In this document: positions 28,219 to 30,983 of the stretch, piece after piece | Layout of the letters: the number at the start of each line of letters is the position of its first letter | How positions within the stretch are numbered: the first letter of the stretch is position 1 | Origin: Actinomycetes bacterium | GTDB lineage: Bacteria; Actinomycetota; Acidimicrobiia; Acidimicrobiales; RAAP-2 | Assembly: GCA_021779855.1 (NCBI GenBank) | Contig: JAJXZW010000007.1 | Location: 38,782 to 102,781 of the forward strand | Direction of reading: 5' to 3' | Length of the DNA stretch: 64,000 nucleotides | Notes under the pieces: model-generated | Seen by the model: only the letters and a program-made list of their open reading frames with translations | What the model was told of the DNA's origin: nothing | Database searches by the model: none | Program-made: the position numbers and the translations under genes

Positions 28219-28962
28219 ATGTTGATCGAGCTCTCCGTGGTTGAACAGCGCTATCTCGCGGTTCGCGACGTCCTGGACTCCGGCGTCCCCATCGTCGAGG
28301 TCGCCCGCCAATACGGCGTGGACCGGCGCACCCTGCACCGCTGGATCTCGCGCTACGCGAGCGGCGGGCTCGAGGCTCTCGCCACCCAGTCCTCTCGCCC
28401 CAAGACGAGCCCCACCCAGATGGCGCCACGCATTGAGGCGAGGCTCGTCGAGATACGCCGGGCGCACCGCGGCTGGGGACCGCGCACCCTGCGCACCAAG
28501 CTGGTCAAGGAGTTCGGGGCGGCGGCGCCCTCTCGTTCCGCCATCTACCGCGCCCTCGTCCGCCACCAGCTCATCAGCCCGGTCCCGCCCCGGCGCACCG
28601 CAGAGAGCTACCAGCGCTGGGAGAGAAGCCGCTCGATGGAGCTCTGGCAGATGGACGTGGTGGGGCGGATCTTCCTGTCCGACGGCACCGAGATCAAGTG
28701 CGTCACGGGCATCGACGACCACAGCCGGTTCTGTGTCAGCGCCCACCTGGTCGCGCGCGCGACCGCCCGGCCCGTGTGCGACGCCCTTCTCGCCGCCCTC
28801 GAGCGCCACGGCATCCCCTCCGAGATCCTCACGGACAACGGCAAGGTCTTCACCGGCAAGCGCCAGGCCACGCCCACGACCGTCCTGTTCGACCGGATCT
28901 GCCTCAACAACGGCATCACGCACCGCCTGACCGCGCCGTTCTCACCGACCACCACCGGCAAG
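28219..28962 (+). pseudogene. IS481 transposase, N-terminal part, disrupted after ...SPTTTGK
   Basis: HTH (VARQYGVDRRTLHRWISRYASGG) and DDE core (WQMDVVGRIFL, TDNGKVFTG); normal continuation IERLHRTMRREF found at 30293. Confidence 0.92.
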
Positions 28963-28971
28963 GTCTGTGAC

Positions 28972-29165
28972 TATGTGGGAGTGCAGCACCGGCCCGATCT
29001 GACTCAGGTCAAGGTGTGACCATGGTGTCTTTCGTTCGATCTGTCGATCGGCACCGGTGCTGCACTCGTGGTGCACCGGCCAGACGGCTCTGACCTGATA
29101 GGAGCTCGGCTAAAGCCCCGTCACAGACCTGTCGACCGCCCGACCGGTTCGCCCACCGTCAGCAC
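28972..29165 (+). ncRNA. Candidate IS110 bridge RNA (seekRNA)
   Basis: 13-bp stem AGTGCAGCACCGG/CCGGTGCTGCACT; paralogous loop framework TCTGAC...AG / CTGTCGA twice; segments match RE (ATAGGAGC), complement LE (GTCACAGACCT vs AGGTCTGTGAC) and right target (CGTTCGAT vs ATCGAGCG). Confidence 0.75.
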
Positions 29166-29190
29166 ACACCTAACGGAAGGCTCAACCAGC

Positions 29191-30279
29191 ATGGCAAAGA
29201 CAGCGTGCGACGTCATCGGCGGCGTCGACACCCATAAGCACACCCACTACGCGGCCGCCATCGACGGTCGCGGCGCGTTCCTCGGAGCCGCGGAGTTCGC
29301 GGCCAGCGACGACGGCTACCGCGAGTTGCACGCGTGGCTCTCAGGACACGGCCGACTGCGGGCCGTCGGCGTCGAGGGCACCGGACACTTCGGCGCGCCG
29401 CTCACCCGCTACCTCAGCGCCAAGGGTGAGAGAGTCCTCGAGGTCAACCGCCCCAATCGACTGGCCCGGCGCTTCGAGGGAAAGTCCGACCGCTTCGACG
29501 CCGAGCAGGCAGCCCGCTCGGCCCTGAGCGGAATGGCCCGGGCGACGCCCAAGGCCAAGACCGGCGTGGTGGAGGTGATCCGGATCCTGCGCGTGACACG
29601 GGCCAACGCGATCAAGGCCCGGACGATGGCCTTCAATCTCCTGCACGGAGTCGTCGTGACGGCCCCGTCGCCGCTGCGAGATGAGCTGGTTGGGCTCACG
29701 AAGCGAACCCTGGTGAACCGCTGCGCCCGCCTGCGCCCCGAGACCGACGATCTCGGAAGCCTCCTCGATGACCCTGACCGGCTTCTCGTGTGCGGCACGA
29801 AGCGGTCGCTGCGCGAGCTCGCCCGCCGCTTCCAGTTTCTCGACTCCGAGGTGAAGGGGCTCGACGTCCAGATTCGGACCCTCGTGAGCGCGACGGCTCC
29901 CGCGTTGGTCGAGGTCTTCGGGGTGGGCACCGAGCTCGCCGGGCAGTTCCTCGTCACCGTCGGAGACGACTTCGGGCGAATCAAGAGTGAAGCCGCCCTG
30001 GCGCGCATCTGTGGGGTCGCCCCTAAGCCCACCGGCAGCGGGAAGACCTCGGGACGCCACCGTCTCAACCGCAGCGGCGATCGGGCCGCTAACAGTGCCC
30101 TCTACCTCGTCGTCCTGGTGCGGATGCGCCACCACGAGCCCACTCGCGCCTACTTCGAGCGACGCACGGCGGAGGGGCTTTCTAAGCGCGAGATCATCCG
30201 CTGTCTGAAGCGCTACGTCGTCCGCGAGATCTACGCCGCTCTGCCCAAGCCTGCTGAGGAGTCGCTCAGAGCCGCTTGA
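29191..30279 (+). CDS. IS110-family transposase (DEDD plus Ser recombinase)
   Basis: GGVDTHKHTHYAAAID, VEGTGHFGAPLTRYL, KSDRFDAEQAAR, ICGVAPKPTGSGKTSGRHRLNRSGDRAANSALY. Confidence 0.95.
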   Translation: MAKTACDVIGGVDTHKHTHYAAAIDGRGAFLGAAEFAASDDGYRELHAWLSGHGRLRAVGVEGTGHFGAPLTRYLSAKGERVLEVNRPNRLARRFEGKSDRFDAEQAARSALSGMARATPKAKTGVVEVIRILRVTRANAIKARTMAFNLLHGVVVTAPSPLRDELVGLTKRTLVNRCARLRPETDDLGSLLDDPDRLLVCGTKRSLRELARRFQFLDSEVKGLDVQIRTLVSATAPALVEVFGVGTELAGQFLVTVGDDFGRIKSEAALARICGVAPKPTGSGKTSGRHRLNRSGDRAANSALYLVVLVRMRHHEPTRAYFERRTAEGLSKREIIRCLKRYVVREIYAALPKPAEESLRAA

Positions 30280-30292
30280 CAAACATAGGAGC

Positions 30293-30983
30293 ATCGAGCG
30301 CCTGCACCGCACCATGCGCCGCGAGTTCTTCGACCTGGCCACCTACGACACGATTGAGGAGACCCAGGCGGCCCTGGACGCCTGGGTCGAGTCCTACAAC
30401 AACGAGCGAGAGCACCAGGGCATCGGCGACATCGTGCCGGCCCGTCGCTTCGAGCTCGCGGCCCGAGACCCCGTCGAGGTCATCGACGGTGACGCGGCCG
30501 AGCCGGCGGGCCCGCCCCGGCGCTCTTACCCGGGTCGTCGACGGCAAGGGCCGGGTCTCGGTCCTCTCCTTCCGCTACCACGTCGGCATGGCCTACTGCG
30601 GGCTGAGCGTCGCGGTGACGAGCGAGGACGGCCTGATCCACGTCCACCACGCCGGCGTCCTCGTCGCGACCCACGCGAGGCGCCACCTGCCCGAGCACGA
30701 CGACCGGTTCACCGACCGCCCCCCGGTCGCCCGGCCCACCAAGGGTGACGAGGTACTGCGCCGGGTCGACACCTCGGGCGCGGTGAGCTTCGCCGGCACC
30801 TCCTACCGGGCGGGCAACTCCCACAAGGGGCGCACCGTCGGGGTCCGAATGGTGGGCGACACCATCCAGATCACCCTCGACGGCCTGCTCATCCGCACCC
30901 ACAAGGCGCGCCATGACCGGTCGAAGGAATACGGTGCTCTCTCGAAGCCCAAGGGCAAACCCAGGAGGACGAATGTCGCATAG
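30293..30983 (+). pseudogene. IS481 transposase, C-terminal part, with a further frameshift near 30515
   Basis: IERLHRTMRREFFDLATY...VEVIDGDAAEPAGPP in one frame, then LTRVVDGKGRVSVLSFRYHVG in another. Confidence 0.85.

Follow-up and report, generated by a model that had tools for sequence, protein, structure and literature searches.

The window, a stretch of 64,000 nucleotides from contig JAJXZW010000007.1 of an Actinomycetes bacterium, holds an IS110-group element of the IS621/ISEc21 kind whose bridge RNA, we are confident, joins a circular form of the element to the GK(V/I)ER codons of an IS481 transposase gene at a TC core. Comparison with the sequences of relatives shows the anatomy, ends, core register, guide-flank correspondence, RNA structure and common target. 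In the mechanism that we propose, the left end would yield a bridge RNA with a target loop and a donor loop, and the recombinase would join the circle, in which right end and left end meet as ATAGGAGCA-TC-TGTGAC, to the target CGGCAAGR-TC-GARCG. Exchange would take place at the TC core, and insertion directly before the presumed catalytic Glu codon would kill the IS481 transposase. We infer transcription of the RNA, an RNA-protein complex, activity of this copy and the strand order of exchange.

The IS110 element and its recombinase

The element (1330 bp, + strand) runs from 28966, the first base behind the left TC core, to 30295, so that the right TC core is included, as placed by the junctions of relatives, in-frame rejoining of the interrupted gene and natural empty sites. 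Its recombinase gene (29191 to 30279, + strand) is intact and encodes 362 aa. The protein matches DEDD_Tnp_IS110, Transposase_20 and the NCBIfam IS110 family RNA-guided transposase (NF033542 at 172 bits, PF01548 and PF02371 above cut-offs). D13, E62, D100, D103 and S283 are invariant in the window recombinase and ten relatives, and S283-G284 is conserved. A profile made from these proteins found the IS621 and ISCro4 recombinase structures, and in the alignment with IS621 the invariant residues fall on its DEDD residues and the region of its catalytic serine. The match to the ISCro4 bridge recombinase (PDB 9t56) reaches only 57.9 bits and is a likeness of the protein alone. The element thus has the DEDD RuvC-like domain and the Tnp20 domain with catalytic Ser that mark the IS110 group, in agreement with the family named in the earlier note. 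Noncoding sequence occupies 225 nt before the gene at the left end and 16 nt after the stop codon at the right end. This is the layout of the IS110 group, which has a long noncoding left end and a short right end, unlike IS1111.

A candidate -35 box TTGACA (30276 to 30281, + strand) overlaps the recombinase stop codon, and TTGACN is present there in 31 of 34 relatives. In the circle it would stand 17 bp from a candidate -10 GACTAT (28969-28974). Right end and left end could therefore make a promoter on the circle, as in IS621; the -10 is weak.

A search of the element's own genome for further copies found one full copy, the other matches being fragments with 43-50% protein identity, so there is no sign of recent movement in that genome. 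No unoccupied exact target site was found there either; empty sites were found in genomes of the same genus (see below). Viral contigs searched for relatives of the element contained none, and a 15-nt pattern search of 399 genomes was unspecific. The single copy, together with the later frameshift by which the host IS481 has decayed, would fit a dead remnant, immobile and carrying guide matches inherited from an active ancestor. We regard this as rather unlikely, since the recombinase frame is intact, the catalytic residues are conserved and the guides still fit the element's ends and site.

The target in the IS481 transposase gene

The 5' part of the IS481 gene (28219 to 28965, + strand) runs to GGC AAG GTC and matches positions 1-232 of profile NF033577 (202 bits). 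The 3' part (30296 to 30983, + strand) starts with the presumed catalytic Glu codon. When the two are rejoined, the match covers positions 1-284 of 284 (269 bits), which confirms the earlier identification of the interrupted gene as IS481. The closest intact IS481 homologue is 83% identical to the joined protein along its full length.

All 12 close relatives with both flanks, the window included, are inserted at GK(V/I)↑E, as (N/Q/T)GK(V/I)↑E (arrow at the insertion point). They are the window, L034, L035, L036, L038, L039, L040, L042, L043, L044, L048 and L106, with 58-70% protein identity; L048 is counted by the motif at its junction. Five rejoined genes were tested (window, L034, L035, L036 and L044) and all belong to the IS481 family; that of L035 is broken after the junction. 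T(T/N)GK(V/I)ER is present in 119 of 119 intact IS481 homologues. The Glu after the insertion point lies exactly 35 residues past the Asp of TDNG in the L035 host and 44 residues past it in the window IS481. DD(35)E is the classic spacing, and from spacing and family knowledge this Glu is presumed to be catalytic. The variable bases of the target are the R of RTC, which faces G in the left guide, and the R of GAR, which faces U in the right guide. As read from the sequences, these G and U bases can pair with both variants at the first base of Val/Ile and the third base of Glu.

Nearly identical guides among close relatives could suggest that the common insertion point is one old insertion inherited vertically and not the result of repeated targeting. 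This is extremely improbable: the interrupted IS481 genes (window, L034, L035, L036, L044) are clearly different proteins, two copies occur per genome in different genes (L043/L044, L035/L036), and the site codons differ (GTC, ATC, GTG; GAA, GAG). We therefore keep to repeated targeting of the Glu codon.

Several further features of the interrupted gene were observed. CGGCAAGGTC occurs twice in the window IS481, at 28836-28849 (second-Asp region) and 28953-28966 (Glu region). The element occupies only the one with a right half matching the right guide, and the other is a natural decoy. The 3' part contains a further frameshift at about 30500-30560, so that, with or without the IS110 insertion, this IS481 was or became dead. 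A 20-nt direct repeat with one mismatch (28025-28044 and 31020-31039) flanks the interrupted IS481, its left arm adjoining a tRNA gene (27950-28023) just after it. This repeat is probably the IS481 target duplication, and the arms 28044-28089/30979-31024 are likely the IS481 terminal inverted repeats.

The core dinucleotide

We assign the core as TC, with the same high confidence as the whole bridge-RNA reading of which it is a part. Both cores of the window copy are TC: the left one (28964 to 28965, + strand) is target-derived and the right one (30294 to 30295, + strand) donor-derived, as judged by junction comparison and guide register. Among relatives the right junctions end in ATAGGAGCA-TC (or NTC) and diverge directly afterwards, while the left junctions vary up to ...NC, where the element begins. 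The right core is TC in 43 of 46 kept elements, and the three exceptions include at least one parsing error (L096, properly TC). In L043 and L044 the same element sits in two targets and different target bases are kept at the left. With a TC core the IS481 is rejoined in frame (TTTGKV↑ERLHRT). Uninterrupted IS481 relatives in three genomes of the same genus (L191-L193) align across the rebuilt site without indel; the empty sites L192 and L193 read exactly ACCGGCAAGGTCGAGCG, and L191 reads ACGGGCAAGGTCGAACG, with two synonymous changes. In-frame rejoining and these empty sites indicate that the target halves join simply, with no duplication beyond the core.

The earlier note had listed letters and coordinates that all proved exact, and what changed is the reading of the core and of the exact ends. 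It took the core to be AG and the target to be ACCGGCAAGATCGAGCG; the actual target is ACCGGCAAGGTCGAGCG. In favor of AG, these two letters stand in all four guide segments of the window copy, and in loop 2 the AG runs on into the right end. A core of AG in the same system, or of RT, one base to the left of TC, is nevertheless improbable. With AG, one C too many remains at the right junction and the IS481 is out of frame, the natural empty sites fit TC, and right junctions end in TC and diverge straight after. When positions 5-7 of the target-loop guide were scanned against positions 2-7 of the donor, the single match was 7-7, in the TC register. RT differs from TC by one base. Here L035 (left base G, GTG target) favors exchange after the C; it is a single case. 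We rejected RT, since C is common to target and donor in all clear cases except L035 and the handshake fits the TC register only. Part of the constancy of this C in the table is imposed by our parser, which accepted only elements with C at left position 9; in the unfiltered junction listing L035 is the one clear exception.

Two elements from different species, L039 and L106, share an odd left junction, AACGGCAAA-GCATC-TGTGAA, with extra bases. The GCATC resembles the donor right end, and the junction does not fit the simple joining model.

Anatomy and conservation of the bridge RNA

The bridge RNA as modelled (target loop plus donor-loop core) lies at 28977 to 29136 (+ strand; covariance model R1, 156.7 bits), and an outer donor-loop stem extends it to about 29150-29152. 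The target-loop stem is formed by 13 perfect pairs between a 5' arm (28980 to 28992) and a 3' arm (29054 to 29066), both on the + strand and supported by covariation; it was also recovered as a 14-bp repeat. TCTGAC is found at 28998-29003 and again at 29089-29094.

The guides and handshake bases are all on the + strand. In the target loop, the left target guide TCAGGTCAAGGTG (29004 to 29016) has 13 nt, with a possible one-base bulge; most other relatives have 12 nt. The right target guide, CGTTC plus core-pairing GA (29033 to 29039), pairs with TC-GAGCG with one G-U, so that CGTTCGAT at 29033-29040 faces ATCGAGCG. The target-loop handshake bases are TCT (29040 to 29042), of which 29040 pairs with donor position 7 (A30293). 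In the donor loop, the left donor guide CTGATAGGAGC (29095 to 29105) has 8 nt identical to the right end, ATAGGAGC being present at both 29098-29105 and 30285-30292. The right donor guide, GTCACA plus core-pairing GA (29120 to 29127), is the reverse complement of the left end TC-TGTGAC, and GTCACAGACCT at 29120-29130 is that of 28961-28971. The donor-loop handshake bases CCT (29128 to 29130) are complementary to target positions 5-7 (AGG).

Readable upstream sequence was found for 17 of 20 genome loci, from actinomycetes and with 58-70% protein identity; one further relative is carried on a Mycolicibacterium plasmid. These relatives have the framework TCTGAC-guide-TGACC ... guide-GTCG, followed by TGACCTGATAGGAGC ... 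GTCACAGAC-GTCG, with few substitutions wherever the available sequence covers it. RNAalifold on the relatives gave a two-loop fold containing 12 compensatory pairs. Pairing in the target stem is 98.8%, and 10 of 22 pairs are changed on both sides, a result reached in none of 500 shuffles; slid registers were paired to at most 48%. Covariation is strong in the target-loop stem, and the donor loop is mostly invariant among close relatives. Covariance model R1, built from 15 close relatives, has one match only in the 64-kb window. With it the RNA was detected in front of the recombinase gene in most relatives at 45-54% protein identity, with scores in distant relatives from 70 bits down to about 18, the weakest without significance. 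An Rfam search of the window at gathering threshold returned tRNA only and no bridge-RNA family. The conserved and covarying two-loop framework bears out the earlier proposal of a bridge RNA in the left end with loop 1 as target loop and loop 2 as donor loop.

Guide matches in the window copy and in relatives

Chance matches in the window copy were estimated with 1000 dinucleotide shuffles of the noncoding region. The match of the left donor guide (8 nt) was equalled in 9 of 1000 shuffles, that of the right donor guide (9 nt inside the element) in 6 of 1000, and both jointly in none. For the 10 nt of loop 1 complementary to the target, a search at any position gave an equal match in 26 of 200 shuffles, so the target match is not beyond chance from the window copy alone. 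This copy is better proof of the donor loop than of the target loop, for which relatives have to be consulted. Without a bulge, the left target guide has one or two mismatches to the target, and the G at its end is not matched by the core C. The left donor guide does not pair with the core in the window clade. A one-base bulge in the 13-nt left guide would improve the match, which is suggestive but unproven. The weaker left-target pairing, already seen in the earlier note, is explained in part by this guide being one base longer than in most relatives.

To widen the set, elements were collected from plasmids, Streptomycetaceae, the same order and the phylum; 46 of the elements were parsed, and 20 representatives with distinct guides were drawn from them. 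Of 74 elements in total, 28 were excluded by the automatic parser as truncated or misread; a few misreads left among the 20 representatives (L161, L114, L116 and the right end of L096) should add noise and not signal. In these representatives the left flank agrees with the left guide at 7.05 of 9 positions (4.81 in shuffled pairings) and the right flank with the right guide at 3.74 of 6 (1.78 shuffled), each value reached in 0 of 20,000 shuffles. The relatives share ancestry, so the shuffle figures are indicative and not strict probabilities. Insertion sites of homologues thus match loop 1, and the earlier claim that loop 1 matches its own insertion site holds across relatives (26 of 200 shuffles equal it in the window copy alone).

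The handshake bases can be followed in the same set. The target-loop base after the core corresponds to donor position 7 in 17 of 20 representatives (8.2 shuffled, 0 of 20,000), and to target position 7, the cognate side, in only 6 of 20. The donor-loop base corresponds to target position 7 in 14 of 20 (10.0 shuffled, p 0.02). At core position 8 the donor has T almost throughout and the target A, G, T or C; the donor-loop guide follows the target base at this position in 15 of 20 (p 0.002).

The conserved upstream region might instead be a regulatory RNA or leader of the recombinase gene, with the protein choosing the target. Such a leader could also be structured, and the role of the RNA in the window copy rests on sequence comparison. 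We consider this very improbable, because the guide segments track the flanks across elements with different targets and a target read by protein would give the target-loop handshake base no reason to agree with the donor end. In IS621 and ISEc21, recombinases of this family also work with a bridge RNA (PMC11208160, PMC11187229). Guidance by the bridge RNA is the reading adopted here.

Two other groups of elements were noted in the wider set. A sister guide class (for example L112, L116, L117, L015 and L091), partly from alphaproteobacteria, has guides that are alike and unlike those of the window. Its members interrupt IS3-type transposases at (S/A/C)(Y/W)D↑NA, again a short way ahead of the presumed catalytic Glu, as read from both flanks joined for L112, L116, L117 and L015 and from the left flank only for L091. 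A Streptomycetaceae genome (G605) carries seven near-identical copies of a related element. In the copies read (L156, L157, L159, L160) the left flank always ends with CAACTGAC and the right flank varies; the right guide seems to matter little in this element.

Relation to known systems and implications

Bridge RNAs have been predicted in 85.7% of IS110-group elements (PMC11208160). The closest comparison is with IS621 (Durrant 2024, PMC11208160; Hiraizumi 2024, PMC11208158), also of the IS110 group, which likewise has a left-end RNA with target loop and then donor loop, left guides equal to the top strand and right guides complementary to it with the core included, handshake bases at position 7 and a candidate promoter rebuilt at the right-left junction. 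The handshake rule was reported for IS621 (PMC11208158). IS621 has a CT core, of which the second T is nearly invariant, whereas the core is TC in the window element and N-C in its clade. In the relatives studied here, unlike IS621, the first core base of the target is often not that of the donor, and each loop has the partner's base in its 3' guide. The targets differ as well, that of the window lineage being a stretch of transposase active-site codons.

The IS110 element ISEc21, a seekRNA element (Siddiquee 2024, PMC11187229), has been proven by experiment, and its target is the codons for the second Asp in IS3 transposases. It resembles the window element in being IS110-type, in its upstream noncoding region and in the choice of DDE active-site codons, and the RNA was shown to be necessary there. 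It aims at the second Asp of IS3, while the window lineage inserts just before the presumed catalytic Glu of IS481. ISEc21 was compared by architecture and target residue. Given this precedent and the predicted bridge RNAs, neither the type of system nor the general idea of targeting DDE codons is new. The aim at the IS481 Glu codon and the fine anatomy of the window lineage look newly described: the literature searched describes neither this lineage nor its TC core nor an aim at this codon, which is weak evidence, since subscription papers and supplements lay outside the search.

A broader reading, which we put forward tentatively and at somewhat less than even odds, is that this clade of RNA-guided recombinases is tuned as transposon hyperparasites. 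Its features would be guides directed to the codons beside the presumed catalytic Glu of DDE transposases (IS481, and IS3 in the sister class), wobble-tolerant bases where those codons vary, and a cross-encoded core in which first bases may differ and the 3' guide of either loop holds the partner's base, so that the RNA would proof-read strand exchange.

The element adds a well-resolved lineage to the bridge-RNA systems. Its ends, core and target are legible in the sequence itself, natural empty sites allow them to be checked, and its TC core is unlike that of IS621. Codons that other transposases presumably cannot change without loss of activity would serve as a landing site across hosts. The natural set, with target and donor cores that often differ, is an independent test of the handshake rule derived from the IS621 structures. 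It suggests that the rule extends to the core, which bears on the retargeting of such enzymes.
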